DNA from: Maribellus sp. YY47
GTDB lineage: Bacteria > Bacteroidota > Bacteroidia > Bacteroidales > Prolixibacteraceae
DNA length: 64,000 nucleotides
Assembly: GCF_023111095.1 (NCBI RefSeq)
Contig: NZ_JALGYW010000004.1
Location: 186,001 to 250,000 of the forward strand
Direction: 5' to 3'
Part shown: positions 7,045 to 62,741 of the stretch, in pieces
Layout: each line of letters starts with the position of its first letter
How positions within the stretch are numbered: position 1 is the stretch's first letter
Notes under the pieces: generated by a model
Told to the model about the DNA's origin: nothing
The model's input: only the letters and a program-made list of their open reading frames with translations
The model's database searches: none
Made by a program: the position numbers and the translations under genes

Positions 7045-7076
7045 CGCAACTTACGGTTTTATGCCGCATTAAAAAG

Positions 7077-7122
7077 AAAAGGAATCGAACAGGCAGGGAG
7101 GTGTTCGGTTCCTTTTTGTTTT
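7077..7122 (+). terminator. rho-independent terminator of the S9 peptidase gene
   Basis: A 14-base arm at 7077-7090 pairs with 7103-7116 with a single G:U pair, followed by T-rich sequence (TTTTTGTTTTTTC). Confidence 0.8.
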
Positions 7123-7132
7123 TTCGGGACTA

Positions 7133-7169
7133 GAAAAAGAAACCGCACTCTGTAAGGAGAACGGTTTCT
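7133..7169 (-). terminator. rho-independent terminator of ettA
   Basis: On the minus strand AGAAACCG (7169-7162) pairs perfectly with CGGTTTCT (7145-7138), followed by a T run down to 7133. It lies 30 bases past the ettA stop, back to back with the + strand terminator of the S9 peptidase gene. Confidence 0.8.
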
Positions 7170-7198
7170 GATGCCAGCGGTTGGAAGCCGCTTCTATT

Positions 7199-39968: not shown

Positions 39969-39987
39969 CCGCTTAATCTGAATAAAA

Positions 39988-41805
39988 ATGAAGAATTACA
40001 TCTATATAATTTTGGTATTAATTGTTGCGTTTTTCAGCAGTTGTACCGACGCTTTAGACATGGCTCCTGACGGAAATATGCAGATGGATGAGGTACTGTC
40101 TGATCCGGATAAAGTGGAAGCCTTGTTGAACCGCGTTTATAATAACATTCCCCAAAAAGGGTATGCCTACTTCTTTTTCGATCCGGCAGTGGTAGCCTGT
40201 ACTGATGACGGTTGGACGTCGGAAGATTCACAGGGGCAGTTGGTGGATCAGTACTACAAAGACAATTGTTCGGCCAGCTGGCATCCTATGCGTGATTTCC
40301 CCGATGGACACGGTGCCAATAACAATAGTTATTGGAGCCGTTACTGGCAACAGATACGTTTATGTTCGCAGTTTATTGAAGTGATTGATGAAGCTGCTGT
40401 TAACGATGAAGCTGACCGAGGAAGATTTAAAGCAGAAGCTAAAGTGATGAGAAGCTTCTTTTACATGGAGCTGATTAAATGGTTCGGAAAAGTTCCTGTA
40501 TTGAACGAAACAGTTCCGTTTGATGCTGATTTTTCAACTTTGACACGGCAATCGGTTTATGAAGTTGCTTCGCTTATTGTTGCTGATTGTAATGATGCTT
40601 TAGCAGAGTCAGAACTCCCCTGGAGGATAGACGGGAGTGGTGATGGAGGTCGTGCCACAAAGGCTTTGGCCTGCGCTCTGAAATCTGAGGCGATGATGTT
40701 TGCCGCCAGCCCGCTGCACAACGAAGGAGAAAACCATTGGGAAGAGGCCTATCAGGTTACAAAGGATGCGGTATCAAAATTAAAAGCAAATGGCTATGAG
40801 CTATTTACAGTATGCACCCAACCCAATGTGTTTGGCACCGGCCCTGCAGCTGCCTATCGGCAGTTGGTAGATCAGGATGCAGATTTTGTACCAACACCTC
40901 GCGATAAAGAAACCATATACCGGGCCAGATCAGGTGGACTGTTTGTTTGGCATATCGGTTATATTGGAAGTAATATGCCAAATACTTACAAGTGCGGTAC
41001 CTGTCCGACACAGGAATTAGTCGATGCCTTTGAAACGATCGACGGACAACCTGTATTGGATCTGGAGCGACCTTATTTGGATGAAAAACATCTGCAACCT
41101 AACTACAATGAGGCTAATACGTTATACGATCCTAATAATCCGTATGCTAATCGTGACCCACGACTGGCTCAAACGGTGTTGTATAATGGAAGTGAAATCT
41201 TGTTTGATAACAAAAAGGTGACGATTGAAACCTACACAGGAGGGAAGCATGCTCCCAGTTGGGATGTTACCAACAGGGTTTCATCGCGAACCGGTTACTA
41301 TCATTGTAAAATGGTTACACCCGGTGCCAGTGGAACCAACCAAATCAACAACGCAAATTGGAAGTTTTATCGTTTAGGTCAGACCTTGCTTAATTTGGCA
41401 GAAACGGCTGCTGAAGCGGGTCACTTGGATGAAGCCAGAGCTGCTGTAAACGAAGTTAGAGCCCGTTCAGGAATGCCCGAGCTCTCTGCCGGTTTGTCAA
41501 AAGAAGAACTGATATTGCGAATTCGCAATGAACGTCGTGTTGAATTGGCCTGGGAAGAAAATCGTTTCTTCGACCTTAGAAGGTGGCAAGATCCAAGTGG
41601 TGATTTAAGTGAAACCAGTAAATGGTTTACAGCCATGGTTATAACTAAAAATTCAGATGGTAGCTTTACTTATTCACGCCGTAATATCTCGGAGAGTCCT
41701 CGCGGAGGATGGCAAAACAGAGATTTACTGCTTCCGCTTCCATTGTCTGAAGCAGCACTGCTTGAGTCGGTAACCGGTCAGCCATGGCAAAATCCGGGAT
41801 GGTAA
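39988..41805 (+). CDS. susD: SusD/RagB lipoprotein, lid of the first SusC
   Basis: 605 residues, lipobox SSC at Cys19. SusD alpha-helical TPR-like fold: ARSFFYMELIKWFGKVP-like segments near 150, RNERRVELAWEENRFFDLRRW near 510-530, and a C-terminal LPLPLSE followed by GQPWQNPGW ending. Binds glycan at the cell surface. No inserted domain; 605 residues is normal. Start ATG 39988, 19 bases after SusC. Confidence 0.94.
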   Translation: MKNYIYIILVLIVAFFSSCTDALDMAPDGNMQMDEVLSDPDKVEALLNRVYNNIPQKGYAYFFFDPAVVACTDDGWTSEDSQGQLVDQYYKDNCSASWHPMRDFPDGHGANNNSYWSRYWQQIRLCSQFIEVIDEAAVNDEADRGRFKAEAKVMRSFFYMELIKWFGKVPVLNETVPFDADFSTLTRQSVYEVASLIVADCNDALAESELPWRIDGSGDGGRATKALACALKSEAMMFAASPLHNEGENHWEEAYQVTKDAVSKLKANGYELFTVCTQPNVFGTGPAAAYRQLVDQDADFVPTPRDKETIYRARSGGLFVWHIGYIGSNMPNTYKCGTCPTQELVDAFETIDGQPVLDLERPYLDEKHLQPNYNEANTLYDPNNPYANRDPRLAQTVLYNGSEILFDNKKVTIETYTGGKHAPSWDVTNRVSSRTGYYHCKMVTPGASGTNQINNANWKFYRLGQTLLNLAETAAEAGHLDEARAAVNEVRARSGMPELSAGLSKEELILRIRNERRVELAWEENRFFDLRRWQDPSGDLSETSKWFTAMVITKNSDGSFTYSRRNISESPRGGWQNRDLLLPLPLSEAALLESVTGQPWQNPGW

Positions 41806-41834
41806 ACTAATACTTGAATTTAAAATTCATAATT

Positions 41835-44800
41835 ATGACAATAGATAAATTTATCAAATATATAGCGCTCAACATTGGATATTTGTTGATGTGCGTCAAT
41901 CTATATGCTCAAGGAGAATCTCTCCCCCAAAACCTTGTGGTAAATGAGTACGGAGAGCCGGTTGCCGGTGCTGTAGTTGTTTCAGAATTTGGCAAGAACC
42001 AATATGTAACATCTAACGATGGTAGTTGTCAGATTACAGTTGACGATGGAAGCTCATATGTAGTTGTAAGAGCAATTGGTTTTCTGGATTATAAGATTCC
42101 TGTGGATGAAATATTAAGCACCCAGAAAATAACGCTGAACTTTGATAATCATAACATGGGCGGTGTTGTGAATATGGGATATAACTCTTATTCCCGAGAA
42201 TCGGTAACCGGTGCAGTATCTTCGGTAACGGGTGCAGAGTTAGACAAAACCCCCAGTAATATATTATCCGAAACGTTATCAGGTAGGTTACCCGGTTTAA
42301 CCAACGTGCAAAACCTTTCTGAATTAACTTTTTTCGGATACGGAAACTATACTAAAACAATTCGGGGTATTTCTTCTCGAAATGGATCTTCGCCTCTAAT
42401 TATTATAGATGGTGTAGTTTGCCCCACTCAGTATTACGAATTCATTTCACCAAAAGAAATCGAAAGTGTGAGCGTTCTTAAAGATGCTTCTGCAACAGCA
42501 ATTTATGGAATGCAGGGAGCCAACGGAGTGATTGTTATTACCACCAAACGTGGGTTTAATGGCGAAAAAAAGGTAGAAGCTTATGTTGATCAGTCTTTCC
42601 AGCAAATGATTAAGCGGCCGATGTTTATAAATTCGGCTCGCTACGCGCAACTTCGGAATGAGGCAGGCGAACGGGATGGACTTGGCACGTATTCTCAGTT
42701 TAGTCAGGACGAAATCGACCAGTTTGGTGCAGGTGATAATATTGCATATCCGAATAACGACTGGTACGATATGTTTATCAAAGACTATGTGTTGAGACAG
42801 CGCGCAGGAGTAAATGTTTCCGGAGGTTCTAAAAAGTTTAAATATTTCTCTGAATTGAATTTTGTGAACCAGGGCGAGCCTCTGATTGTAGAAGATGTTG
42901 CTGACCGTAAATATGATCCAACTCCCCATGTTAATATTTTCAATTTTCGCTCCAATATGGATGTGAATTTTAATCAGTATGTATCGGGTTTTATGCGCCT
43001 TGCAGGTAGTGTGAAACGCGAAAAGCAAACAGGAGCCGGGATGAACTGGGATATCTACAGTAACTTACTCAGTTTGCCTCCGACAATGTATGGGCCATTG
43101 TCTCCCGAGATTGAGGATGACCCGGACCAGAGCAACCAGGTTGTTACGATTGTAGGAGTTGATAATCCAGCTTATGGCGAAATTAATCGGTCGGGTTATA
43201 AAGAGATTATCGAAACCAATGTAATTGCACAAGCCGGATTAAGTGCTGATTTAAGTTTCATTACCAAAGGCTTGTCCGTTAGTGGAGCTATGGCTTATCA
43301 GGCCTATCTTCGGAACAATACCTCTACAACTCAGGAGTATTATAAAGTGATTAGAGAAAATGATTATTCGGTGTTGGATAATTTTAGGAAATATGGTGAT
43401 GACGAGAATACTCCGTTGGCTTATTCCAAAGGTTCAGTTTACTTCTATTATCTCGATTTGTTTGGTACGGTTGAGTACAAACGTCAGTTTGGTGATCATT
43501 CAATCGACGCTGCTGCTCACACCTATTATTTATACCAGGAAAAAGAAGCAACAGGAAGCGGAAGTGATGTATTACCTTACAAACGACAGAATGCTGGGGT
43601 GAGTGTGCTCTACGGGTTTAAAGACCGTTACTTTGTAAAAGGAGACCTTGGTTATTCTGGTTCAGAACAATTTCATCCGGATAACCGGTTTATAGCTACA
43701 CCGTCCATTTCAGCAGCCTGGATTGCCTCTAAAGAAAATTTCTTTGATGTTGATTTCATCAGTCTATTAAAACTAAGGGCTTCATATGGTTTAACAGCAA
43801 ACGATCAAATAGGTGGTTCTCGTTTCCTTTACCTGGATAACATTCGTTCTTCCGGCGAAGAGAAAGAGAGGGGGAATCCTGATTTGTCTCCCGAAAAAAT
43901 TAAAAAGCTGAACCTTGGTCTTGATCTTGGTCTATTAAATATGTTTACCATCGGTGTTGATTATTTTAAAGATAAAGTCGACAACATGTTGGTGAATAGT
44001 TCTTCAACAATTCCCGTTTACCAGGGTATTCCTCTTGGGTACTATCCTAAACTGAACAATGGTAAAATGGAAAATAAGGGCTACGAAATTTCGGTTGGTT
44101 TCAATAAGCAATTCAGTAAAGAGCTGAGAGCTTATGCTACTTTTAATTTCATGCAGGCGAAAAACAAAGTGATTAGCATCAACGAATCTCCTTATTCTGA
44201 TGATTATGCTTATCCGTACCGTACCGAAGGATATCGCTATGGGCAACAATGGGGGTATAAAATTGACTACAGTAACGGAAACGGAATGTTTAATTCAGAA
44301 CAGGAATTAGCAAGCTCAAACCTCGTTTATTCTATGGGTATACCGCGTGTGGGTGATTTTATCTATCAGGATTTGAATAATGATAATACAATCGATGAAA
44401 AAGATTTAGCGCCCATGGGATATGCCAAGATACCTGAGCAAGAATATACTTTCAACGGTGGCGTAAACTGGAAGAATTGGGAAATGTCGTTTCTTTTCCA
44501 TGGTGTAAGAAATGCTTCTCAGTTTATAAGCGGTACAGGGGTTTATGAAAACGAGAGCCTGGGAATATTCAATGATATTCATTTAAATGCATGGACACCT
44601 GAACGTTATGCTGCCGGAGAGGAAATTTCATATCCTGCTCTGTCATTGTTACCTTCAACCAACCACGTTAACAACGATTTCTTTTTGATGGATCGTTCGT
44701 ATCTGCGTTTAAGAAATCTTGAGATTGCTCATACCTTACCGGTAAACCTTTCCAAGAAAGCGTCGAAGGAAACCATACGTATTGCCGTTAACATTCAAAA

Positions 44801-44912
44801 CTTGTTTACGATTGATAATGTACAATCAAAATACATCGATCCTGAAATTGGGCAAATGAATACATTCCAGCCTTATAGGGTATATAACCTTGGCGTAAAT
44901 ATTAACTTTTAA
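41835..44912 (+). CDS. susC: second SusC/RagA TonB-dependent receptor, no STN domain
   Basis: 1025 residues from ATG 41835 (the frame extends to a TTG at 41814 without family sequence). Signal peptide (about 1-26, LYAQG), a shortened carboxypeptidase-regulatory-like domain (about 32-95), plug with GRLPGLTN and MQGANGVIVITT, and the usual barrel ending GVNINF. STN is absent. The TonB-box region reads VNMGYNSYSRESVTG instead of the usual VVVGYG-type box, a marked change from the first receptor. It cannot signal to FecR by itself. Followed by its SusD after 11 bases. Confidence 0.93.
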   Translation: MTIDKFIKYIALNIGYLLMCVNLYAQGESLPQNLVVNEYGEPVAGAVVVSEFGKNQYVTSNDGSCQITVDDGSSYVVVRAIGFLDYKIPVDEILSTQKITLNFDNHNMGGVVNMGYNSYSRESVTGAVSSVTGAELDKTPSNILSETLSGRLPGLTNVQNLSELTFFGYGNYTKTIRGISSRNGSSPLIIIDGVVCPTQYYEFISPKEIESVSVLKDASATAIYGMQGANGVIVITTKRGFNGEKKVEAYVDQSFQQMIKRPMFINSARYAQLRNEAGERDGLGTYSQFSQDEIDQFGAGDNIAYPNNDWYDMFIKDYVLRQRAGVNVSGGSKKFKYFSELNFVNQGEPLIVEDVADRKYDPTPHVNIFNFRSNMDVNFNQYVSGFMRLAGSVKREKQTGAGMNWDIYSNLLSLPPTMYGPLSPEIEDDPDQSNQVVTIVGVDNPAYGEINRSGYKEIIETNVIAQAGLSADLSFITKGLSVSGAMAYQAYLRNNTSTTQEYYKVIRENDYSVLDNFRKYGDDENTPLAYSKGSVYFYYLDLFGTVEYKRQFGDHSIDAAAHTYYLYQEKEATGSGSDVLPYKRQNAGVSVLYGFKDRYFVKGDLGYSGSEQFHPDNRFIATPSISAAWIASKENFFDVDFISLLKLRASYGLTANDQIGGSRFLYLDNIRSSGEEKERGNPDLSPEKIKKLNLGLDLGLLNMFTIGVDYFKDKVDNMLVNSSSTIPVYQGIPLGYYPKLNNGKMENKGYEISVGFNKQFSKELRAYATFNFMQAKNKVISINESPYSDDYAYPYRTEGYRYGQQWGYKIDYSNGNGMFNSEQELASSNLVYSMGIPRVGDFIYQDLNNDNTIDEKDLAPMGYAKIPEQEYTFNGGVNWKNWEMSFLFHGVRNASQFISGTGVYENESLGIFNDIHLNAWTPERYAAGEEISYPALSLLPSTNHVNNDFFLMDRSYLRLRNLEIAHTLPVNLSKKASKETIRIAVNIQNLFTIDNVQSKYIDPEIGQMNTFQPYRVYNLGVNINF

Positions 44913-44923
44913 ATGGCTTTAGC

Positions 44924-47197
44924 ATGAAAAAATATATTTCAAAACTATTTACAGTGTTTGTCTCAGTGTTAGGCTTAGTTTCCTGTGCCGACCTGGATAT
45001 TCCATCTGATGGACGAATGACGCTAAATGACATTTTCATGGATTATTATTCCACCAGAAATTACTTTAACAGATGTAGTGACTATATGCCGCAGGTTGGT
45101 TTTTCTTACGAAAATACCCCGTTGGCTTCGTTTTGCGATGAAGCACACGATGCCAGCGACGGCGTAAGCGGTGCTGTAAACGATTGGTATAACAACCGGA
45201 CATCGTCATCAAACAATCCATTAGCATCGGGAGGCGATCCCTGGAGTCGTTATTTTGAGGGTATTCGGAAATGCAACACTTTTCTGGAGAGTATAAACGA
45301 TCCAACTGTTGCTACTGCAAATATTGATGAAGAGGAGAAAAATGGCTGGATTGGTGAAGTTTATACCTTACGGGCATTTTATTATCTTCAATTAATAAAA
45401 CGATATGGTGGTGTACCTATCATTGATGCACCTTACGAAATTACCTACGATTTTTCGCAAGATAGCCGTGCTACATTTGAAGCATGTGTAGATTTTATTT
45501 TGGCTGATTGCGACAGAGCTCTTGAAATTCCGGAGAGCAGTGTCTCGACCATCGGTTTTAGATGGGATATTAGTGATAATGAACGAGGTCATGTCACACG
45601 TGCGTTTGCATATGCCGTAAAATCGCAGGCAGCATTATACGCAGCCAGTCCGCTTTGGTATGAGCAGGGGAGCAAATACACCTGGGATAAAGTCACTGAA
45701 ATTACAAAAGAAGCACTTGACGAATGTTTGGCTCATGGATTTGAACTTTTCGATATTACTCCAAACGCAGATATTGCTCAAAATGCTTATGCTTATTATT
45801 TTATTAATCGTTCCGATCCAAGCCGCTCGGTGGATAAGGAAACGATATTTGAAACTACATCTTCCCGCACAAATGTATGGAAATACGCAGGAACGCCCAT
45901 TACAGAGGGAGCTTTAAAGGCAGGCGCTGGTCCTTCTCAGGAACTGGTTGACGCCTATGGAATGCAGGCAACAGGTGAAATGCCGGTTTTGGGATATTTC
46001 GATGCCAGCCATTTGCAGCCAATCATAAACGCCAGTGCCGGGTACGATCCTGCTAATCCATACGAAGGAAGGGACCCACGCTTTTATGCTTCTGTTTACT
46101 ACAATAACTCGCCACGTTCACTAACTACCGGGAATATCGATAAGGATTTGTTTCCCTTAAGTTTTACTTCAACGATCAACAATATAACTGCAACTAAAAA
46201 TGGTGACGAAGTAACTTTGGCAACAACAGGTAGTGATCCATGGATATTCACGACAACTTTAACCCGTCCGTTAACTGCAGGAGACAGTCGTGTTGTTTCG
46301 TTCGAATATAAAAGTAACAAATCAATTACTGATTCTGAGTTTTTCTTTTGTGTGGCTGGTGGCCCGCAGGGCGGAGTTGAATCAGGCCAGAATATTCACA
46401 TTCCACAGGCTTCTGAATGGACTCGGTTTGAATACGATTTAACGACCGCTATCAATACGTGGGGTTTTGGCGTTAATTCAAGTGGAGGTGCAAGTCCTGA
46501 AAATCATTTTCTACGTTTTGACGTAACAGGCGGAGCTGGATACGAAATTACAATCCGTAATTTCAGAATCGAATGTTTTACACTACCGCCGGCACCTACG
46601 CCAGTCGAAACTTTTGTCGGAGGGAACTGTGAGATATCGGATCGGGTAAATGAAATTACAAATACCAGAACCGGCTATTACATGCGTAAGTTTAATAACT
46701 ACAAATCGGGAGTAAATGTCGACCAGGATGGTTTGATGAAGATCTTCAGACTTGGTGAACTGTACCTGAATTTTGCAGAGGCAGCTTATCAATCAGTAGG
46801 TCCCGATGCAGCTGTGCCGTCAACAGTGGGCGGATCTGCTATGTCTGCTCGCCAGGCTGTGAATACAATACGCGAACGTGCGGAAATGCCGCCTCTGCCG
46901 GCAGGTTTGTCAGAAAGCGAGTTTGAGGTGCGGTATCGCAATGAACGTCAGGTTGAAATGGCATTCGAAGAACACCGGTTCTTTGATGTTCGCAGGTGGA
47001 AAATTCTGAATGAAACAGATGGTTTCGTTACCGGAATGAAAATTACCCAGGAAGGCGATTCTTATACATATACACGTATTAAGCTGGAAGATAGAGGTAC
47101 TAATGCTGACAAGTACTTAAGGTACCCAATCGATCAGTCTGAAGTGTCAAAAATGGAGAGCTACACCGGTACCAGCTGGCAAAATCCAGGTTGGTAA
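44924..47197 (+). CDS. susD: second SusD/RagB lipoprotein with an inserted beta-sandwich-like module
   Basis: 757 residues, about 150 longer than the first SusD. Lipobox VSC at Cys21. SusD features include YLQLIKRYGGVPI, RNERQVEMAFEEHRFFDVRRW near 680, and WQNPGW at the end. Between DPRFYAS (about 384) and TRTGYYMRKF (about 580) an insertion of about 150 residues (core about 417-551, nt about 46,170-46,577) matches the N-terminal module of the DUF5722-like protein at 54,969: TTGxDPW, VxFEYKS, WTRFEYDL, HFLRFDV, IRNFRIE. Probably a glycan-binding insert. Confidence 0.93.
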   Translation: MKKYISKLFTVFVSVLGLVSCADLDIPSDGRMTLNDIFMDYYSTRNYFNRCSDYMPQVGFSYENTPLASFCDEAHDASDGVSGAVNDWYNNRTSSSNNPLASGGDPWSRYFEGIRKCNTFLESINDPTVATANIDEEEKNGWIGEVYTLRAFYYLQLIKRYGGVPIIDAPYEITYDFSQDSRATFEACVDFILADCDRALEIPESSVSTIGFRWDISDNERGHVTRAFAYAVKSQAALYAASPLWYEQGSKYTWDKVTEITKEALDECLAHGFELFDITPNADIAQNAYAYYFINRSDPSRSVDKETIFETTSSRTNVWKYAGTPITEGALKAGAGPSQELVDAYGMQATGEMPVLGYFDASHLQPIINASAGYDPANPYEGRDPRFYASVYYNNSPRSLTTGNIDKDLFPLSFTSTINNITATKNGDEVTLATTGSDPWIFTTTLTRPLTAGDSRVVSFEYKSNKSITDSEFFFCVAGGPQGGVESGQNIHIPQASEWTRFEYDLTTAINTWGFGVNSSGGASPENHFLRFDVTGGAGYEITIRNFRIECFTLPPAPTPVETFVGGNCEISDRVNEITNTRTGYYMRKFNNYKSGVNVDQDGLMKIFRLGELYLNFAEAAYQSVGPDAAVPSTVGGSAMSARQAVNTIRERAEMPPLPAGLSESEFEVRYRNERQVEMAFEEHRFFDVRRWKILNETDGFVTGMKITQEGDSYTYTRIKLEDRGTNADKYLRYPIDQSEVSKMESYTGTSWQNPGW
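46170..46577 (+). other. inserted module in the second SusD, shared with the DUF5722-like lipoprotein
   Basis: About 136 residues. Anchors shared with residues about 46-176 of the 54,969 protein, in the same order: TTG-x-DP followed by an aromatic residue, FEY-x-S, S-x-W-x-x-F-x-x-DL, H-x-LR-x-DF or DV, RN followed by a strand. Ends just before the SusD fold resumes. May be a DUF4972-type domain; not confirmed. Confidence 0.7.
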
Positions 47198-47587
47198 GTT
47201 CATATCTTGTTTAGATGTAGTGTAATATTGAAAATGAGAAAGAGCAGCCAATTGGCTGCCCTTTTCTCATGATCAAAACACGATATTTTCCAGTTAAACC
47301 TAATGCTTTGTAAACGAACCTCTTTCTTTTTGAAAGAGCGTTCGACGCAAAGTTTCTACTACTGCCACTGTTGTCATTCGTATAATTTTAAACGACTTGA
47401 ATATTAAAAAAGTAATATCATTGAAGGTATTCTTGTTTGGTCTTTCAAGATGAGCAGATTCGTCTATCGGTGCATTTTGCAGTTATAATTTTTCCTGAAT
47501 TTGCCGATTCGCAGAACTCGTTAATCCTGAAAAACATCATGTATAAACAGGCTGCACCTATAAAATGGCACATTAATTTAAAAATGA
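47198..47587. other. 390-base gap with an attenuator-like hairpin after the second SusD
   Basis: At 47234-47269 the arms ATGAGAA...GCAGCC and GGCTGC...TTTCTCAT form a strong hairpin around an AATT loop; the tail is TTTTCTC, not a full T run, so termination may be partial. The remaining 300 bases show no clear gene or consensus promoter. Confidence 0.55.
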
Positions 47588-47605
47588 TTGGCTAACAGAA
47601 AACTT

Positions 47606-49528
47606 ATGAATAAGCGATACAAAAAGGATTCAAGTAAGAGGGACCGATATAGATTAAGGTGCTTGATGGTGCTTTTTTGCTGTATGCTTATTTGTTCCGC
47701 AAAAGCCGGCGACAAAAACAAAGTTCAGGACAAATTTTCGGTACTGCCTTCGGGGGCCGTACAATTGGATGGATATTTAGACGGTTATATTCAGAAATCA
47801 ATAAAAAACTGGAACAAAGGAGTGGTTCCTTATGCCTCTTTTGTTGATTTCTTTAGAAACGGCAGGCCTCAGTTTGCTTTAGGCGAAATGTGGGGTAAAG
47901 CGGTCCGCTCCGGCTGTATGTTTTACCGCTACACGCAAGATCCGGAATTAAAACGTATAATGGAGGCAACGGTAAAAGACTTGCTCTCTGCGCAACGTGC
48001 AGACGGAAGTATCAGTTGTATTGAACCTGAAAAACAACCCGATGCCAGCGATTTGTGGGAGCGAAAATATGTAATGCTCGGACTGGAAGAATATTACGAA
48101 TGGGTAAATCCCGATCCGGCAGTTTTAAACGCTTTAATAAAACATGCCGATAATATTATATACTTAATCGGACATGCTCCAAAAACAGAAATTACCGATG
48201 TGGGCTGGAGTGCAACAAACATTGGTTACGAAGCATGTCATGTTGAGTCAAGCACTTTGTTCGAGCCTTTTATGCGTTTGTACAAGTGGACAAATGAGCA
48301 ACGTTATTTAGATTTTGCGAGCTATATTTTCGAAGCAGGAGGTACGAAAAACTACAATGTTTTTGAGATGGCGCTCAATAATGTAGAACCCTATAAAATG
48401 GCCGGGCATTATCCAAAAGCCTACGAAACAACGTCATTATTTGAAGGCTTGGTTGAATACTACCGGGTGACTCAAAATCCCGAAGTGCTGCAAATGATTC
48501 AAAACTATTTTAATAATGTCAGGACCAAAGAGATAACGATAATTGGTAACGGAGGGAGCGACCAGCCCTATCATCCGATGGTTGCCGGAGAAGCCTGGGG
48601 AAATACCGCGGTAGAGCAAACCAATCCTGACATTACCCGTATGATGGAAACTTGCGTTGGCGTTACCTGGATGAAGTTCTGCAGCCAGGTTTCACGGCTT
48701 ACAGGAACGTCATCGGCCATGGATGAAATCGAGAAATATGTTTACAACGGATTAATTGGTGCGATGAAACCGGAAGGCGATGGCTTCAGTTATGTAAATC
48801 TGCTGAATGGAACCAAAGTTAATGGCGAAGGCTGGGGCTGGATGTTCGATAGTCTTCATGTAACTTGTTGCAACCTGAATGGACCGATGGGGCTTGCCTA
48901 CTTACCCTACGTGGCGGTTATGCGCACCGATGAAGGTCCGGTTGTGAATCTCTACAATACTGCAACAGCTGATTTTGTTACTGCCAAAGGAACAACGGTA
49001 CAATTAAAAATCGAAACGGACTTTCCTCGTTCAGGGCTGGTGAAAATTAAAATTTTATCGGATAAACCGGCATCTTTCCCGGTGATGCTTCGTATTCCCG
49101 GTTGGAGTGAAAAAACGAGTTTGAGTGTCAATAATAAGCCGGTGGAAGTGACTCCCGGTACTTATGCTGAAATCCGGAGGAAATGGAATCCGGGCGATGA
49201 AATGGAACTGCAGCTCGATATGCGTTGTCGTATTGTTGATGCACCAAAAGGGAGTAACCGTGCCGGCGATCATTTTAACGCATTGATTCGCGGTCCGATC
49301 GTTTTAGCCCGAGATGAGAACATCGATGAAAATTACAATCAGCCGGTAAATATTGTTTCCGAGGATGGTTATGTGAATATTATGCCCGGGAAAAGTTCAG
49401 ATGGTGCCGACTCTGGGATGGAGTTCCGGGTGCCTGTTGAAGGGGGCTTTATTACGGTTGTTGACTATGCATCGGTTAACAACTGGAACGGCAAACACAT
49501 TTGTACTTGGCTGCCAACAGCTGAGTAG
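47606..49528 (+). CDS. GH127-like beta-L-arabinofuranosidase
   Basis: 640 residues from ATG 47606 (frame open from a TTG at 47588). Signal peptide (about 17-35, CSAKAG). A DUF1680-type (alpha/alpha)6 barrel with a beta-sandwich C-terminus. The zinc-thiol site of GH127 is visible: E348-x-C350 and adjacent C421-C422, spaced as in HypBA1 (E338, C340, C417, C418; C417 is the nucleophile). Removes terminal beta-L-arabinofuranose. Close family GH146 shares this site, so the subfamily is not certain. First enzyme after the SusCD genes. Confidence 0.85.
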   Translation: MNKRYKKDSSKRDRYRLRCLMVLFCCMLICSAKAGDKNKVQDKFSVLPSGAVQLDGYLDGYIQKSIKNWNKGVVPYASFVDFFRNGRPQFALGEMWGKAVRSGCMFYRYTQDPELKRIMEATVKDLLSAQRADGSISCIEPEKQPDASDLWERKYVMLGLEEYYEWVNPDPAVLNALIKHADNIIYLIGHAPKTEITDVGWSATNIGYEACHVESSTLFEPFMRLYKWTNEQRYLDFASYIFEAGGTKNYNVFEMALNNVEPYKMAGHYPKAYETTSLFEGLVEYYRVTQNPEVLQMIQNYFNNVRTKEITIIGNGGSDQPYHPMVAGEAWGNTAVEQTNPDITRMMETCVGVTWMKFCSQVSRLTGTSSAMDEIEKYVYNGLIGAMKPEGDGFSYVNLLNGTKVNGEGWGWMFDSLHVTCCNLNGPMGLAYLPYVAVMRTDEGPVVNLYNTATADFVTAKGTTVQLKIETDFPRSGLVKIKILSDKPASFPVMLRIPGWSEKTSLSVNNKPVEVTPGTYAEIRRKWNPGDEMELQLDMRCRIVDAPKGSNRAGDHFNALIRGPIVLARDENIDENYNQPVNIVSEDGYVNIMPGKSSDGADSGMEFRVPVEGGFITVVDYASVNNWNGKHICTWLPTAE

Positions 49529-49588
49529 TAGTAGTAAGGCTAATAGTTTGAAACGGTCAAAAAAAATACAGACGAAATTAGATGAACG

Positions 49589-51904
49589 ATGAAACAAACC
49601 ATTAACATAATCCTGTTTTATTCGGCCTGCATGTTTTTATCCATTGTAAGCCTGGCTCAGCAAGCCGGTAAAAACAAGGCAGCAATTCCATCGTTTAGTA
49701 AAAAGTTAGCTCATCTTCCCGATGATATTCAACCGGTAATTGGTGCGTGGTTTTGGGGCGAAAATGATTTTACTGCTGATGGTTACAAAGCATCTGTTGA
49801 TATGTTTGAAAGCTATTCGTGTTACGATCTCCTTGCTGTTGGCATCCGACGTTCCGGACACGATATTACAGATATTGATGTTCATAACCAGGTTAAACGG
49901 GCTGCTGAATACGCTCATGAAAAGGGATTAAAATTGGCCCTCGAACTGGATCCCAGAATAGCACGGCATAAGTTTCAGGCAATGTATCCCGATGAGTTGC
50001 AGCAATCATTGTGGCTTCAGGAAGTGCCGCTTTCAGAAAATGAAGCCGTTTCAACCATTGTAAAAAGTATTGACCTTTCCGATCACATGACTGGAAATAA
50101 AGTTCCGTATGTTTCGTTAAGCGGAGCCTTGCTGCGTGTGTATTCTTATACAAAAACTTCTGATGGGATCGATCCAAATACTCTTCAGGATATTAGCGAC
50201 GAATGTAAGATAACCGTGTCGACAAAAGATTCGCTCGTGGTGAAACTGCCCGCAAAGCACGGATACAAAGAGCTTCGTGCCTGTGTAATGGTAACGTTTA
50301 CACATCTTTATCCTGATGTTTTTGCTCCGCATTTAATCGAGTTTACACGTAATATTATTGACGCTTATGCCGATGTCCCCCTGGCAGGAGGCATGAGAGA
50401 CGAATGGGGATTTCCGCCAAGTACGCCTGCCGACCGAATGGCTGGCGGGAATCATTTTTGGTATTCGAACCATTATGCCGAAGCGTATGCTAAAAAGACG
50501 GGAGGACGGGAGCTGTTGGCCGACTGCTTGCTGATGTATGCCGGAATAAAAGGAAAAGAAGCGGAACGTTACGGCGTAATCAATGCCTATATGGAACTGA
50601 ATCGTGAACGTAACATTGAGTTGGAAAACGATTTCTACGAAAACATAAAAAAGGTTTTTGGACCGGATGCTGCAGTGGTGACCCATCCCACCTGGTTTCC
50701 CTATCCCAATAAGCTGGAGGCAAAAAAGAACGGTCTTTATTGGTGGGCAGCAAAGCGTGACTGGGCGCAAACCGATGAGGTGACTCCGTTTGCGGCACGA
50801 ACTGCGGTCGCAAAAAAATGGGGAAGTCCGGTGTGGTACAACCAGTATTATGGAACACAACGGGAAGCCTACGAAGACGAACTTTGGAGTTCAGTATTGG
50901 CCGGAGGAAGAATAAACTATCATCCGCTATATCCTAGCGATAAAAGCAGGCAGGAAAAGTACACCGAGTTGCTTAAAGGTGAGTTAATGCAGGGGGAGAG
51001 CCGGGTCCGACTATTGAATTTTATAAGCGAGAGCCCCTTGAATTGTCCGGTCGCTGTTGTTTTCGGCCATCCTTCGGCAATGAACTGGGCGGGACCGTAT
51101 GCCGAAGATTTGGGAATGACACTGATTAATCGTTTGTGGAGTGAGGGGATTCCTGCCGATTTGATTCCAACCAGCGAAATTGAAAACGAAAGCATGCAAA
51201 TCGATGAAGATGGATGGATTACTTATGGAAGTCAGCGCTATGCTGCCGTTGTTTTATACCATCCCGAATTTGAGAAAAACTCAACATCAACATTTTTTCA
51301 AGAGGCCTCAACCGGACAAACGAACCTGTTTCGGATCGGGAACTGGACACGCGATTTTAACGGACAACTTTTTGATGGAAACGCGGCTTTGCCTTCAACA
51401 ATGAAAATTTCAGAAAACATTGAAGACCTGATTAAAAAAGTTCAAAAAATTCTGAAAAAGCAAAAAATCGAGTTGCAGACACCTGCTTCACGCTTGCTTT
51501 CAGGATTTGGTTATGCTTCCAATACTCCGCCAACTCAGGGATTTTGTCGATTGATCGATGGTACCCTTATCCAGGTGGCGGCGATAAATCATCCGTCAGG
51601 CGATCCAATTGAATCTAAAATGAAAGTTGGAAAATACGAAGTTGTTTTTAATGCACTTGGAGTTGCAGCAGTACGGCTGGATGATAATGGACAGCTGGAG
51701 GCTCTTGCAGCTGGTGGATTGACCTTTTTTAAAACCGGTAATTTATCGATCAGGTTGGATAAGCCGGTTGATCTCGCAATATGGACTAACGACAAGGGAG
51801 AGCTGGAAGGAGTGATTCAAGGTGAAGTTGAAGATGTGCCTCAGGCTCTGCTCGATATTACTCAAAACTGGACCTACATAAACAGTCCTTTAAAATTTGA
51901 CTAA
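49589..51904 (+). CDS. exported protein of no recognised family, candidate glycoside hydrolase
   Basis: 771 residues, signal peptide about 1-24 (LAQQ). N-terminal part (about 45-430) alternates beta strands and helices as in a TIM barrel: VIGAWFWGEND, AAEYAHEKGLKLALELDP, then AGGMRDEWGF (Asp271-Glu272), VVTHPTWFPYP and WYNQYYG. The middle (about 470-600) has VVFGHPSAMNWAGPYAED and VLYHPEF like the beta-galactosidase trimerisation-type domain. C-terminal beta strands. It resembles GH42/GH10-like layouts but no family can be named. Position in the PUL supports a glycosidase; Glu272 is one candidate catalytic acid. Confidence 0.6.
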   Translation: MKQTINIILFYSACMFLSIVSLAQQAGKNKAAIPSFSKKLAHLPDDIQPVIGAWFWGENDFTADGYKASVDMFESYSCYDLLAVGIRRSGHDITDIDVHNQVKRAAEYAHEKGLKLALELDPRIARHKFQAMYPDELQQSLWLQEVPLSENEAVSTIVKSIDLSDHMTGNKVPYVSLSGALLRVYSYTKTSDGIDPNTLQDISDECKITVSTKDSLVVKLPAKHGYKELRACVMVTFTHLYPDVFAPHLIEFTRNIIDAYADVPLAGGMRDEWGFPPSTPADRMAGGNHFWYSNHYAEAYAKKTGGRELLADCLLMYAGIKGKEAERYGVINAYMELNRERNIELENDFYENIKKVFGPDAAVVTHPTWFPYPNKLEAKKNGLYWWAAKRDWAQTDEVTPFAARTAVAKKWGSPVWYNQYYGTQREAYEDELWSSVLAGGRINYHPLYPSDKSRQEKYTELLKGELMQGESRVRLLNFISESPLNCPVAVVFGHPSAMNWAGPYAEDLGMTLINRLWSEGIPADLIPTSEIENESMQIDEDGWITYGSQRYAAVVLYHPEFEKNSTSTFFQEASTGQTNLFRIGNWTRDFNGQLFDGNAALPSTMKISENIEDLIKKVQKILKKQKIELQTPASRLLSGFGYASNTPPTQGFCRLIDGTLIQVAAINHPSGDPIESKMKVGKYEVVFNALGVAAVRLDDNGQLEALAAGGLTFFKTGNLSIRLDKPVDLAIWTNDKGELEGVIQGEVEDVPQALLDITQNWTYINSPLKFD

Positions 51905-51974
51905 ATAAAGTAAGGAGGTGAATCAAGGCGTTCACTGTCAATATCAAAAATGAATAATCAATAAAAATCGAACG

Positions 51975-52946
51975 ATGAATAATTGCCAATCCAATTTAAA
52001 TCTGAAAAGAATATTGAGTTTACTATTCCTGTGTCTGCAGCTTCCGCTGTTTTCGCAGTGTAGCAATAATGAACCGGCGGCGGTTGTGGTCGTCGAAAGC
52101 ACTAAACCTGTTATCGACAACGAAGTACTGACATTGAAACTCGATTTAACCCGCGGCGGTGCCATTTCCTATTTGTCGTTGTCGGGCAAAGACCGGAGTA
52201 TAGTAAATATTTTTGATGAAGGCCGTTACATTCAGCAATCGTATTATGCGGGCAAAAGTGTAAACCGGCAGGACGAAGGACAATCGGCAAGCTGGTCGCC
52301 TTGGAGTTGGAACCCGATACAGGTAGGCGATGCTTTTCGAAATCGTGCTGAAATCCTCGATTTTCAGAAGTCGGAAAATGAAATTTATGTAAAATGCATA
52401 CCCATGCAATGGGATATGAACAATAAACCGGCAGAGGCCGAAATGGAACAGTGGACCACGCTGGATGGAAATGTGTTGAAAGTAAAGAATCGCCTGACGT
52501 GTCACCGCACCGATACCATTTACGGAGAGGGAATTTTAAATGATCAGGAATTGCCGGCAGTTTACCCGATTTCTGCCCTGAGTAAGCTGTACAGTTACAT
52601 GGGCGACGCCCCGTTTACGGGTGCCGATATCACGCAGCTCGAAGTTGTAAATCTTGCCAGCGGCTTTTGGGGAATTTACAACAATGTGCCGGAAAACTGG
52701 ATGGCTTTTGTTGATGATTCCGGGTGGGGGATGGCTGTTTATAATCCACAGTGTATCCGCTTTTTAGCCGGAATGTCGGGCACTCCGGGCGCTGAAGCTG
52801 ACGAAGCTCCTACATCGTATATCGCTCCGGTAAAAAAAGCAACCTTGAATAAAAACAGCGTGTACGAATATGAATATTACATCGTGGTAGGTACGCTTAC
52901 CGATATCCGCAAAAAGATTTACGAATTGCATTTGGATAAAAATTAA
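51975..52946 (+). CDS. exported beta-sandwich (galactose-mutarotase-like) protein
   Basis: 323 residues with a signal peptide (about 10-30; FSQC could also be a lipobox, but Gln at -1 is unusual). LDLTRGGAISYLSLSG, FDEGRYIQQSYYAGK and WSWNPIQVGD are features of the aldose-epimerase/galactose-mutarotase-like supersandwich found in some lyases and epimerases. No metal site or family catalytic motif is sure. Gap to the next gene is 5 bases, so coupled with the six-hairpin protein. Confidence 0.55.
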   Translation: MNNCQSNLNLKRILSLLFLCLQLPLFSQCSNNEPAAVVVVESTKPVIDNEVLTLKLDLTRGGAISYLSLSGKDRSIVNIFDEGRYIQQSYYAGKSVNRQDEGQSASWSPWSWNPIQVGDAFRNRAEILDFQKSENEIYVKCIPMQWDMNNKPAEAEMEQWTTLDGNVLKVKNRLTCHRTDTIYGEGILNDQELPAVYPISALSKLYSYMGDAPFTGADITQLEVVNLASGFWGIYNNVPENWMAFVDDSGWGMAVYNPQCIRFLAGMSGTPGAEADEAPTSYIAPVKKATLNKNSVYEYEYYIVVGTLTDIRKKIYELHLDKN

Positions 52947-52951
52947 AAATA

Positions 52952-54961
52952 ATGAAACCCAAAAGGCGAAATAGGTACGGTAGATTGTTTCTGGTTAGTT
53001 GTTTCTGGTTGGTTTTTGGGAGTTGTTTCACTTCCGGAGCTCAGGAAAACAGCGGTAAACATTGTCTGGGAAATGGAAATTACTGTGTTTATGCCAACGG
53101 GGTTGATATTCAACAGGTGTTTGGCCCTCCTTACAGCACTCCGTCCTTTTTTAATTCATCGTTGAGCACATCGGGTATTGAGGTTGAAACCAGCAGGGAA
53201 CCCGGAACTGATATTTATATACACAAGCTTTATAAAAACGGTAAAAAAGTTGGTACAATAACCGATTTTGTTCCCGCTGGAGTGGATTGTTTTTGCCGGA
53301 CTTCGGATTTAACCGAACCTGTATATTTCTCGCTGTCGGTTGAAAATCATCGCAATTCTGTTTCTGTAATCGATTATCCTCGACACGAAAAAGAGTTCGG
53401 GATCAATAATAGTTTGTTGGTTAGTGCTTTGCCGGGCGTATTTGTTTACAACGACTATCCAAGCCCGTTTGAGATTAACCACCAGATTGTAACAAACGGT
53501 TCGGTTCGTGTTTACCCCAGTGCCGACGATAAAATGGAGTATATGCTGAAATTTGGAGAGGGGAAAGGTGTTTTGTACCTGGTTGGAGGCCCGGCGTTTC
53601 AGCAGTTAAACAGCAATCTGGATAAAATCCTTCGCCAAAAACCGGAGGAATTGCTTTCAAATACCCGAGGAGACTGGCATAAATTCGTAACACAAAGAAC
53701 TGACTTTGCCCGGGAAATCGACGGACAGAATCCGGATAAAGCCGAACTGATGAAAGCGGTTGACGATGTGTCTGTTTTGCTGAGAACCCAACAAGGCGAA
53801 TCGGGTGGAGTATTGGCAGGGCATTACTATCACATGGCTTATGTGCGGGACGAATACGGTGTTTCGCGGGCCTTTTTGGCGCTGGGATACTACGATGAAG
53901 CACGTAAGATTCTGGATTTCTATTTCGATGTCTGGCAACGATTTGGTGTACTTTATAATGCACAGGCCATCGGTATTCCCGGTATTTTTCATAAACACGA
54001 AAACGACGAGGTCGAAATCACCGGTTATTTGCTCATTCAGGCATTTGATTACCTGAAGAAAACCGACGATAAAGCCTTTGTTAAAAAGATATTGCCTTTT
54101 CTGGAATGGAGCTGGGAGGTTCAAAAAAAGAACCTGGTCGATAACATGCTGCCCTTTAACGGCGATGAGACTTACATTGCAGGGGGACTGATTCCGCGCA
54201 AGGTTTTAAACGATGGTTCTGCCGAAGCTACCTTGCTTTTTGTTGAAGGAGGAACACGTTTATTACGATTTATTGAAAATGAACAACTAAAAGATGCCGC
54301 TTGGTTAAATGAAAACAACGACTTGCTCGATCAGGTCAAAGCCGGTTTCCGAAAGAATTTCATGAAAAATGGTCGTTTAATGGCCAACAATCCCTCGCGT
54401 GCAGAACATTGTGACTATCCTGAATTCAGATACGGAGTATGTCTGTACCCGGGGCATGGTGGCTATCGCGGAATTCTGAAACACCACAAAGGTTCCTTGT
54501 ATTTCTGTAAAGAATGCTATGGAAAAGTCAGCGACGGGATTGAGTCGGAGCCTTCGGATGAGTTTTTCCTTCCCTCGGTTTATCTGATGCCCATTTATGT
54601 GGATGCCGAATTATTTACGAACGAAGAAAAAGAGACGATGCTGAATGAGTTGGTGGCGCTTTACCAGCAAAAAGGACGTATAACGGTTGCACAGCAGGAA
54701 GGAAAATTGCTGGGATACGATTACGGCTTGTTTTTGTATGCCCTTACCTGGTTTAATCATCCACTGGCAAAAGATATTTACCTGAAAATGATGGATCTGC
54801 GCGACGAAACCGGAACATGGTGCGAATATTACCTCAACGATGTTCCGAACGGTTGCCGTTACCGCCCGTGGGAGAGCGGGATAAATATTGAAGCCGCAGT
54901 AAATTATGTGGAGGGGAATCAAATCACAAAAAATAGAGACGAAATTAATGACGTAAAATAG
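52952..54961 (+). CDS. exported six-hairpin glycosidase-like protein
   Basis: 669 residues with a signal peptide (about 10-34; ends SGAQ). N-terminal beta-sandwich (about 40-250) and C-terminal (alpha/alpha)6 barrel (about 260-650) as in GH15, GH63 and related families. Barrel signs: MAYVRDEYGVSRAFLALGYYDEAR (about 287-311), LNDGSAEATLLFVEGG, and RPWESGINIEAAV near the end (about 640-652). The Glu in WESG and the Asp-Glu in VRDEYG are catalytic candidates. Family not assigned. Translationally coupled to the 323-residue protein and to the DUF5722-like gene (7-base gap). Confidence 0.65.
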   Translation: MKPKRRNRYGRLFLVSCFWLVFGSCFTSGAQENSGKHCLGNGNYCVYANGVDIQQVFGPPYSTPSFFNSSLSTSGIEVETSREPGTDIYIHKLYKNGKKVGTITDFVPAGVDCFCRTSDLTEPVYFSLSVENHRNSVSVIDYPRHEKEFGINNSLLVSALPGVFVYNDYPSPFEINHQIVTNGSVRVYPSADDKMEYMLKFGEGKGVLYLVGGPAFQQLNSNLDKILRQKPEELLSNTRGDWHKFVTQRTDFAREIDGQNPDKAELMKAVDDVSVLLRTQQGESGGVLAGHYYHMAYVRDEYGVSRAFLALGYYDEARKILDFYFDVWQRFGVLYNAQAIGIPGIFHKHENDEVEITGYLLIQAFDYLKKTDDKAFVKKILPFLEWSWEVQKKNLVDNMLPFNGDETYIAGGLIPRKVLNDGSAEATLLFVEGGTRLLRFIENEQLKDAAWLNENNDLLDQVKAGFRKNFMKNGRLMANNPSRAEHCDYPEFRYGVCLYPGHGGYRGILKHHKGSLYFCKECYGKVSDGIESEPSDEFFLPSVYLMPIYVDAELFTNEEKETMLNELVALYQQKGRITVAQQEGKLLGYDYGLFLYALTWFNHPLAKDIYLKMMDLRDETGTWCEYYLNDVPNGCRYRPWESGINIEAAVNYVEGNQITKNRDEINDVK

Positions 54962-54968
54962 TGGAAGT

Positions 54969-57131
54969 ATGAAGACATTAGATTTTTACAGATTATTACC
55001 GATGACGTTGTGGCTGTTACTTTTCAGCGCTGCCGCTTTCAGTTCGTGTGAAAAAGACTCGGTGGAAAAACCTGAAACGGAGCCTATCGTTGTAAAAAGC
55101 TATTTTAGCTTCAATTCATCATCTGCGCACGATCTGGAGGTGACCAACGATGGCGCCCACCAATATAAAATTCAGACAACAGGAACCGATCCGTACGTTA
55201 CTTTAAATCCGCTGACAAGTAGTATTGCAGAGGATAAACTTGTGTTTACGTTTGAATACCAGAGTACCGCTGCGCTCAACAATCTGCAATTGTTTCTTGC
55301 ACCGCCAACAACCGAAGAGCGCTCGGTGAAATCGGAGGAACTGACAGAATCAGGCAGTTGGAAAACCTTTTCCATCGATCTGGGTGATTATATCGATGAA
55401 TTTAGCTGGGGAAATACAGGACATTACTTGCGACTTGATTTTGGCAACAGCTCGGGAGTTACCATTCTGGTCCGTAATATGGAAATGAGGGTGCGCACCG
55501 AAAGTGAGCAGGCGTTGGCCGATGCACGTGCCGAAGAACGCGAAAGGTTGCGCATTCTGGAAGAAAAACTAAATAATTATCTGGCAGCTACATTCGATGC
55601 ATCTGTTACTGATGTGTCGGTTTCGGCTTCAAAAATTACGGTTACGGGAAATTGTCCCGATCCAGCCAATCTTTTGTTGTGTGAAGTCACTCCTTATCAG
55701 GATTTGGTAGAACTTACCAATTTTGAAAATGGCGTAGCACCCGGAAGTCAGAACTTTTCCATCGAGCTGGATCGTTACATTGAAAAAGACGGTTTCAACT
55801 ACGATCGCAGCCTGTCGAAGTGGGTGTTGGTAAAAAGCGGTTCCATCACCGATGAAATTGTTTCGTTTGCCCGTTACGCCAGCGAGATAACTCCACAGGA
55901 AACAATGCCGGCCGGTCAGTTAAGGAGTAAAAAGGGACTTGGAGGTTATGCCGTTAGCCGTGGGTTTCAGCAAGATCTCGACGACCTGAAAATTACGAGT
56001 GTAACCGTAAATGTAGCGCTTACTTCTTATATGTACCTTCAACCACGGGCTAATACGTTTGAACATGTGTATGGCGGGAAATCCTATTATTTCAACAAGG
56101 CAAGAATAGAAGAACTCGATAGGACCATGCAGAAAGCCTACGAGAAAGATATTATGGTGGCTGCAATCATTTTGATTCAAAAGGCTTCTGAATGTGCCGA
56201 TCCTGAAATTGGTGAATTGTTGCAGCATCCGGGGTTTAGTGGCGAAGGCTTTTTTACAATGCCCAACATGACCAACGCGGCCAGTTTAAATTGCTATACC
56301 GCAGCACTCGATTTTCTGGCCAGTCGCTACAACCGCCCCGACAACGCCTACGGAAGAATTCATAACTGGATTATGCACAACGAAGTAGATGCCGGATTAA
56401 CCTGGACCAACATGGGCGATGTTCCCATGATCAATTTTATGGATACCTACATTAAATCCATGCGGCTGTGCCACAATATTGTGCGGAAATACGACGAGAC
56501 AGGTCAGGTGCTCGGATCGTTTACCCATTCGTGGAAAGATGCGGTGGAATCGTATGCAACCGTGGATATGCTGGAGGTACTCAAAAAAGAATGTGCTGCC
56601 GAAGGAGATTTTCAGTGGGGACTGGCTTGTCATCCGTATCCGCAGGATTTAAATGAGCCCAAAACATGGAACGATGCAAAAGCGACGTTTAGCATGAGTT
56701 CATCGCTGGTTACCTTTAAAAACCTGGAAGTGCTGGATGCCTGGATTAAAAAGGCAGAGAATAAATTTCAGGGAACCATAAAACGCACATTATGGCTATC
56801 GGAAAACGGAACCAATTCAAGAACCTATGGTGAACAGGATTTAATGGAACAGGCTGCGGGCCTGGCGTATGCCTGGAAAAAATTAGAGTTGCTTGATGGC
56901 ATTGATGCCATTCAGTGGCACAACTGGATTGACAACCGCGGCGAATTTGGCTTACGAATTGGCCTGCGCCGCTATCCCGACGATGAGGAAGATCCGGGTG
57001 GCGCAAAACCGGTGTGGTATGTTTACCAGGCTGCAGGCACCGATCAGGAAGATACGGTTTTTGATCCCTATAAATCGCTGATCGGAATTGGCGACTGGAG
57101 TGAAATTATGCACACCGTGTTGGCTCCGTAG
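54969..57131 (+). CDS. DUF5722-like lipoprotein, candidate clan GH-A glycoside hydrolase
   Basis: 720 residues, lipobox SSC at Cys27. Module 1 (about 46-176) is homologous to the insert in the second SusD. A charged helix (ARAEERERLRILEEKL) links to a small beta domain (about 200-310). The C-terminal TIM barrel (about 315-700) begins SKKGLGGYAVSRGFQQDL. The HNEVDAGLTW motif gives acid/base Glu472 (NE pair) and LSENGTN gives Glu612, separation 140, as in clan GH-A retaining enzymes. This resembles DUF5722 proteins. Probably surface-exposed. The glycan is inferred to be the PUL target. Confidence 0.7.
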   Translation: MKTLDFYRLLPMTLWLLLFSAAAFSSCEKDSVEKPETEPIVVKSYFSFNSSSAHDLEVTNDGAHQYKIQTTGTDPYVTLNPLTSSIAEDKLVFTFEYQSTAALNNLQLFLAPPTTEERSVKSEELTESGSWKTFSIDLGDYIDEFSWGNTGHYLRLDFGNSSGVTILVRNMEMRVRTESEQALADARAEERERLRILEEKLNNYLAATFDASVTDVSVSASKITVTGNCPDPANLLLCEVTPYQDLVELTNFENGVAPGSQNFSIELDRYIEKDGFNYDRSLSKWVLVKSGSITDEIVSFARYASEITPQETMPAGQLRSKKGLGGYAVSRGFQQDLDDLKITSVTVNVALTSYMYLQPRANTFEHVYGGKSYYFNKARIEELDRTMQKAYEKDIMVAAIILIQKASECADPEIGELLQHPGFSGEGFFTMPNMTNAASLNCYTAALDFLASRYNRPDNAYGRIHNWIMHNEVDAGLTWTNMGDVPMINFMDTYIKSMRLCHNIVRKYDETGQVLGSFTHSWKDAVESYATVDMLEVLKKECAAEGDFQWGLACHPYPQDLNEPKTWNDAKATFSMSSSLVTFKNLEVLDAWIKKAENKFQGTIKRTLWLSENGTNSRTYGEQDLMEQAAGLAYAWKKLELLDGIDAIQWHNWIDNRGEFGLRIGLRRYPDDEEDPGGAKPVWYVYQAAGTDQEDTVFDPYKSLIGIGDWSEIMHTVLAP

Positions 57132-62695: not shown

Positions 62696-62741
62696 CCCAT
62701 TTTTTTTGTGACGAAAGATCTAAACCAATAAAACAATTAAT

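Follow-up and report, generated by a model that had tools for sequence, protein, structure and literature searches.

In SusD lids, binding is viewed as residing in the core of the protein, with extra binding left to separate surface glycan-binding proteins (SGBPs). Related arrangements are known elsewhere: the SGBP CHU_1279 has a modular architecture resembling carbohydrate-binding modules (CBMs) (PMC12016534), SusG carries CBM58 inserted in its domain B (PMC11267923), and a Maribacter laminarinase contains an inserted domain related to a laminarin-binding SGBP-B (PMC11345257). SusD proteins, SGBPs, CBMs and CBMs inserted in enzymes are thus established, and so is a domain common to a laminarinase and an SGBP-B. 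Here, we describe a locus of Maribellus sp. YY47 (assembly GCF_023111095.1, contig NZ_JALGYW010000004.1, positions 186,001 to 250,000 of the forward strand), in which a domain of approximately 135–145 residues, designated module A, is shared by a SusD lipoprotein (SusD2) and a DUF5722 lipoprotein of the same polysaccharide utilization locus (PUL). The whole stretch of 64,000 nt is referred to as the window, and all coordinates of its features are window positions on the forward strand.

The locus resembles each of the described systems in part. As in SusG, a candidate binding module is inserted in a Sus surface protein, but SusG is an amylase and not a SusD lid. As in the laminarinase system, where both partners serve the same glycan, an enzyme and a capture protein share a domain, although there the capture protein is an SGBP, not a SusD. 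The SGBP-B-like proteins of B. thetaiotaomicron (7kwc and 7kwb) are also close, as 7kwc is the best Foldseek match of module A and SGBP-like relatives carry the module; in those proteins the binding module is on a separate lipoprotein, whereas here it lies within SusD itself. No paper on a CBM-like insert in a SusD was found by title or abstract in the open-licence literature.

The initial annotation of the window, made from the letters alone, had proposed that SusD2 and the DUF5722 lipoprotein contain the same module, and our comparisons bear this out. In SusD2 (757 aa; 44924..47197), the module occupies about residues 407–553 (46142..46582), and in the DUF5722 protein (720 aa; 54969..57131), it occupies about residues 41–177 (55089..55499). 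Pairwise blastp aligned SusD2 415–553 with enzyme residues 50–177 at 25% identity with an E-value of 4e-11 (4.8e-11 composition-corrected), and phmmer gave 5.6e-14, both E-values being those of a comparison of just two sequences. The Smith–Waterman score was 130, whereas the 2000 shuffles averaged 30.5 and none exceeded 60 (0/2000 as high), which rules out a chance match. The boundaries that the annotation had assigned, 417–551 and 46–176, were correct, the shared segment being placed here at approximately 410–553 and 45–177. Its sequence anchors needed one amendment: four of the five (TTG-x-DP, FEY-x-S, H-x-LR-x-D and RN) occur unaltered in the two copies, but the fifth, S-x-W-x-x-F-x-x-DL, is matched in full by SusD2 alone, since the enzyme has SGSWKTFSIDL, with no serine two positions before the tryptophan. 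The first SusD of the cluster (SusD1, 605 aa; 39988..41805; PF07980 E 1.7e-50) had been said to lack the module, and indeed its score against the enzyme segment, 35, is inside the shuffle range. Searches of the complete assembly from which the window comes (5.04 Mb in 55 contigs) detected the module in the SusD2 and DUF5722 genes only.

SusD2 is a clear member of the SusD/RagB family (PF07980, 134.5 bits against a cut-off of 23.1; PF14322, 57.2 against 27), and, like the family, has both domains; directly upstream lies an ORF that is SusC-like by eye. Unlike the family, its SusD_RagB domain is split by a module of approximately 145 residues. The PF07980 match (E 8e-39) falls into two stretches; the nearest solved homologue, 3qnk, is matched at 96–397 and 607–718, flanking the insert; and the alignment of SusD1 with SusD2 contains a single long extra stretch in SusD2, between the segment ending in FYASVYYNNSPRSLTTGN and 'VETFVGGN...'. 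In none of the 33 other SusD open reading frames (ORFs) read from the window's genome did an insert relative to the SusD profile reach 49 residues, and one has a 48-residue insert at the module site; this survey is a mild test because the profile was built partly from those ORFs.

Module A has no match in Pfam (up to E 10) or NCBIfam, so it was rejected as a domain already known to those databases, and searches of the PDB by sequence, with single sequences and with profiles, gave nothing under E 0.2. The F5/8 type C, DUF4959 and DUF4998 families match other parts of SGBP-like carriers, and none of them matches the module itself. AlphaFold2 (AF2) predicts the SusD2 copy as a beta-rich domain with one short helix (92 rows; predicted local distance difference test score, pLDDT, 89.3), and in the model of the full enzyme (40 rows; pLDDT 92.5) the module corresponds to residues 48–175. 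Judged by the order of their elements, the modelled copies are alike: each consists of the same succession of ten strands and a helix, to which the SusD copy adds one further short strand at its start. A Foldseek search of the PDB with the SusD2 module returned 33 matches at E <= 0.001, headed by 7kwc. Among the 50 listed rows, 47 were CBMs (CBM29, 4, 6, 11, 16, 30 and others), glycan- or sugar-binding proteins or glycosidases, including three MtGlu5 rows that we take to be a glycosidase; the remaining three were two Elapor1 chains and one Cry protein. The model and these matches place module A in the predicted fold class of the CBM-like beta-sandwiches, alike in this to CBM families 29, 4, 6, 11, 16 and 30, from which it differs in having no Pfam match. 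The sole CBM among the PDB profile matches was 1oh3 (CBM29), at E 1.6, and the module did not prove to be a CBM29 member by sequence. The most likely function of the module is glycan binding. The initial annotation had called it probably glycan-binding, and this is the best reading because the two modules are homologous and have the same predicted order of elements, with a predicted fold nearest to CBMs and SGBPs.

To place the pair in a wider context, DUF5722 loci were taken as the best 80 of 179 found by scanning genome contigs with a barrel profile, a sample biased to the window's kind; loci and genomes are given by our handles (L and G numbers). Module carriers were sought in the genomes of 40 of these 80 loci, chosen by us, using a profile (A6) made from nine modules, some of them from those same genomes. 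Seventeen distinct SusDs with the insert were identified in 12 genomes, comprising at least 11 of the 40 searched and the window's own; 11/40 is a lower bound because not every match's ORF was read. All 17 inserts lie at one site, between the same flanks, an FYAS(I/V)YYN segment and a VETFVGG segment. These surveys reject a private pairing within the window's PUL. In broader samples module A was rare, being detected in 10/393 genomes of the order with profile A4 (six of them weak, E 9e-8 or worse) and in 3/395 genomes of the phylum with profile A2 (strong only in the window's genome and G495); DUF5722 itself, sought in an equally large draw that listed the same genomes, occurred in the window's genome and G495 only. 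Scanning genome contigs with just the enzyme copy of the module gave no match. Three genomes have the module without any DUF5722 match, as tandem copies (G169), beside a transglutaminase-like domain (G270) or in a DUF4998 lipoprotein (G337). Module A was also seen in a protein with Big repeats and a phosphodiester-glycosidase-like part, by eye (L180:1042-3390, reverse strand), in a transglutaminase-like protein identified by Pfam (L013:11986-13506, reverse strand), and as two C-terminal copies in lipoprotein-like ORFs of L205, L206 and L208.

The second carrier in the window is a clear member of DUF5722 (PF18989, 395.6 bits against a cut-off of 30.5, E 3e-118), a family of unknown function on which no paper was found in the open-licence literature; the Pfam match covers residues 317–713 and excludes the N-terminal module. 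The barrel has no relative in the PDB by sequence up to E 1. Most Foldseek matches of the enzyme's AF2 model were barrels of glycosidases (GH39, GH50 agarases, GH1, a xylanase and an endo-galactanase, some of these glycoside hydrolase (GH) family numbers being those we presume), the best being a beta-glucuronidase, with a pullulanase and a GH66 dextranase also among the matches and template modelling (TM) scores by query length of 0.20–0.33. Enzymes of clan GH-A have a TIM barrel and two catalytic glutamates, the first in an NE motif. In the DUF5722 alignment (A5, 40 rows), N471-E472 (56379..56384) and E612 (56802..56804) are invariant, and by analogy we infer that they are the catalytic acids, the former as candidate acid/base and the latter as candidate nucleophile of a predicted TIM-barrel glycosidase. 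By iterated hidden Markov model (HMM) search, the module precedes the barrel in 83/85 DUF5722 ORFs whose barrel is preceded by 180 residues or more, which makes module A the usual N-terminal domain of DUF5722. In all, 90 DUF5722 ORFs were found (in the 80 loci, G495 and the window), from which five with fewer than 180 residues before the barrel were excluded: L076 and L099, cut by a contig end, and L077, L081 and L106, with 160–178 residues, in which the module was not found. Including these three shorter, apparently uncut ORFs gives 83/88. Two DUF5722 enzymes of G495 have three tandem modules each, and a scan over the full length of one of these also matched CBM3, fn3 and a type IX secretion system (T9SS) tail. 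A stretch of approximately 53 kb in that genome (L028-L031; G495:C1:2851470-2904492) contains four DUF5722 enzymes, two with one module and two with three, together with an alpha-L-rhamnosidase and several neighbours that are sulfatase-like by eye. At L080:9440-13467, two DUF5722 genes are adjacent; the module was detected in the second but not in the first.

In a 60-row tree of modules, the window's SusD insert belongs to a 26-row clade (14 SusD, 10 SGBP-like and 2 other rows; support 100/99) that contains no DUF5722 module, and three further SusD inserts join outside this clade at 86/79. The split is not clean, since the SGBP-like copy of L088 groups with DUF5722 modules, and the DUF5722 module of L085 has a weakly supported place on the capture side. 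On this tree, capture-type and enzyme-type modules are separate lineages that parted long ago, and not local copies. Nine capture rows (three SusD and six SGBP-like) share residues such as W440 and EFF-x-C...GGP, positions at which the enzymes mostly have tyrosine or phenylalanine and other residues, respectively; in later-found inserts, such as those of L178, L179 and L184, the EFF-x-C stretch is absent by eye.

The history of the insertion site was examined in SusD trees, one of 74 rows made by FastTree and one of a 35-row subset redone by IQ-TREE on the core with the insert columns removed, rooted by SusD1-type proteins as an assumption. In the 35-row tree, all module-A SusDs fall in one 27-row clade (100/100), sister to the SusD1-type proteins. 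The fewest changes on this tree would be one gain, a loss in L045/L073, a loss in the L090-L114 group and a replacement by a second module in L041/L044; more than one gain of the insert is possible. The genome of L045 has two other SusDs that retain the insert. Seven loci have an insert-less SusD with an SGBP-like gene in play (L090-L093, L098, L109 and L114): in six of the seven, the next gene encodes an SGBP-like ORF of approximately 543 aa ending in a capture-type module A, and in L091, this gene is seemingly broken, the module lying in a 125-aa open frame (L091:4659-5033). SGBP-like carriers end in module A, preceded by F5/8 type C with DUF4959 or by DUF4998; of the ORFs of these seven loci, the two that were scanned both had F5/8 type C, and DUF4959 was over the cut-off in L114 and under it in L090. 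SusD and DUF5722 were the only module-A ORFs seen in the window, L039 and L047. In our interpretation, one arm is borne sometimes by SusD itself and sometimes by its neighbour, a pattern that spans few clades and is not a rule.

The replacing domain, module B (approximately 137 aa), is at the same SusD site in L044 (2158-2568) and L041 (SusD ORF 3-1382, aa 127–263), and the nearest relative of these two SusDs is that of L179, which carries module A (100/100). As L041 and L044 are close relatives, the insertion was probably one event. Module B has no Pfam match, and its sole HMM match to module A in the output shown had E 0.22 in a two-sequence set, given which we treated it as unrelated to module A and not as a diverged form. 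Further copies lie in other ORFs of L044 (4299-6953) and L041 (2825-5326 and 7323-8801). These carriers are an 834/885-aa protein with a T9SS tail, present in both loci, and a 493-aa L041 protein with a sub-threshold GH130 match. Module B was also seen in ORFs of L042, L050, L075, L099 and L213.

Taken together, our data are well explained by a model, which we consider quite probable, where an unnamed family of CBM-like beta-sandwich domains serves as a glycan-binding arm on enzymes, SusDs and SGBPs. Module A would be the usual N-terminal ancillary domain of DUF5722 proteins, as predicted glycosidases, and a separate capture lineage would have entered a loop in one subfamily of SusDs and become attached to SGBP-like lipoproteins. 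On SusD or SGBP, the copy would act as an extra arm holding the polysaccharide of the PUL at the SusCD lid and adding avidity, while the enzyme copy would hold the same glycan class and position the substrate for cutting. The SusD site would be a modular port: some lineages later lost the insert, one of them having the module on a separate SGBP-like gene instead, and one lineage exchanged it for module B. The homology, the common predicted fold class, the recurrence, the single insertion site, and the swap and loss on the tree are observations; the parts of the model played by glycan binding, surface location, DUF5722 catalysis and a shared substrate are our inference. Some support for the annotation's suggestion that one glycan may tie enzyme and lid together comes from the recurrence of modules A and B across protein types, A in SusDs, SGBP-like lipoproteins and DUF5722 proteins, and the replacing B in other proteins of the same loci. 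It is weakened by the few SusDs linked to DUF5722 genes and by the difference between the lineages. The shared substrate would probably be a rhamnose-containing glycan, as indicated by a rhamnosidase in the window, GH106 in L039 and the rhamnosidase of the G495 cluster.

Several observations weigh against this model. Only 6/17 module-bearing SusDs share a contig with DUF5722 (many of the genomes being fragmented metagenome-assembled genomes), and the second insert-bearing SusD of G790 lies on a 280 kb contig (C4) without DUF5722. Nine SusDs of the insert clade (L045, L073 and seven of the L090-L114 group) have no insert at all, and the genome of L073 gave no module match except that of its DUF5722; the SusD insert is thus dispensable. 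The gene directly after an insert-bearing SusD of G802 is a 326-aa lipoprotein-like ORF that likewise ends in a capture-type module A (L200:2376-5678; 12 module matches in the genome in all), which contradicts a strict exclusivity of SusD insert and neighbouring SGBP. The TM-scores of the module by query length, 0.38–0.58 over the 50 listed Foldseek rows, are only moderate, so that a fold class is indicated and not a family. The ligands of capture and enzyme modules may differ, because they are separate lineages with partly different conserved residues, and the two lineages may bind different parts of the glycan. CBM-like sandwiches can also serve as spacers or packing domains, and the order of module, 29-residue helix, small beta domain and barrel in the enzyme model may reflect a structural arrangement.

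These last points lead to the strongest alternative, which we nevertheless regard as unlikely: that module A has a structural role, as a spacer or a packing domain, bracing the barrel in DUF5722 and enlarging the lid in SusD. Its retention in 83/85 DUF5722 ORFs is as expected of an integral domain, the module runs into the helix and second beta domain of the enzyme model, and the agarases matched by that model include 6xj9 (PfGH50B), which is matched by the module alone too. Ig-like domains have been proposed as spacers in PUL lipoproteins (DUF1735; PMC11216935). Yet the module is found as well at the end of SGBP-like lipoproteins and in tandem arrays, settings in which it braces no barrel; it has been lost or exchanged in SusD, and its closest folds are CBMs. 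Much less probable is a protein–protein contact by which DUF5722 enzymes dock onto the SusCD lid, a possibility that the annotation had also raised and that our results do not support; the presence of one module on both proteins of a PUL, a pattern of sharing repeated by module B, would fit such a contact, but homologous copies need not bind each other, and the module occurs in the genomes without a DUF5722 match (G169, G270 and G337) and on the DUF5722-free contig C4 of G790. That the window's insert is a recent local copy of the enzyme module without functional meaning is barely credible, for although the two modules are 8.5 kb apart in one cluster, they are only 25% identical, the insert is present in 17 SusDs, and the module trees reject a local duplication into SusD2 by grouping its module with those of SusD and SGBP-like proteins.

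Within the model of a glycan-binding arm, a bolder proposal, which we advance tentatively and with somewhat less than even confidence, is that the SusD lid loop has evolved into a port through which glycan-binding modules are exchanged, each related to one in other proteins of the same PUL. If so, lid and enzymes would read the glycan through modules of one kind, and the content of the port could predict the enzymes and the glycan of a PUL. In one subfamily of SusDs, a CBM-like module has become part of the SusD chain itself, at a single site, where it was kept, lost or exchanged, and the same module on a SusD and a predicted glycosidase represents a link from capture to cutting that can be read from sequence. 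The natural insert-free, A-insert and B-insert SusD relatives are a ready set for testing the role of the arm, and the module findings give a lead for DUF5722.

The PUL-type cluster of the window comprises two SusC/SusD-type pairs (36510-47197), followed by GH127, DUF5722 and rhamnosidase genes and several unnamed proteins. The SusC-like ORFs, assigned by eye, lie directly 5′ of SusD1 (36510..39968) and of SusD2 (41814..44912, its presumed partner). The GH127-family protein (47588..49528; PF07944 E 6e-32) scored 133 bits against the NCBIfam aceric acid hydrolase, far under the cut-off of 950. The alpha-L-rhamnosidase (60281..62695), presumably of GH78 type, matches PF17389 (E 1.9e-67) and three more rhamnosidase domains. 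Four further proteins of the cluster (49589-51904, 51975-52946, 52952-54961 and 58224-60224) have no Pfam match at E 0.001 and are possibly uncharacterised glycan-active proteins, and a protein of metallo-beta-lactamase fold (PF00753) is encoded at 57240-58127. Lastly, a protein of approximately 600 aa with an '...ATDALGR...' start, recognised by eye, is found near DUF5722 in the window (62724-64000), L039 (11258-13072), L041, L045, L047, L073, L090 and L093; the L039 copy is without a Pfam match, and that of L090 (ORF 5241-7184) has a sub-threshold GH99 match.

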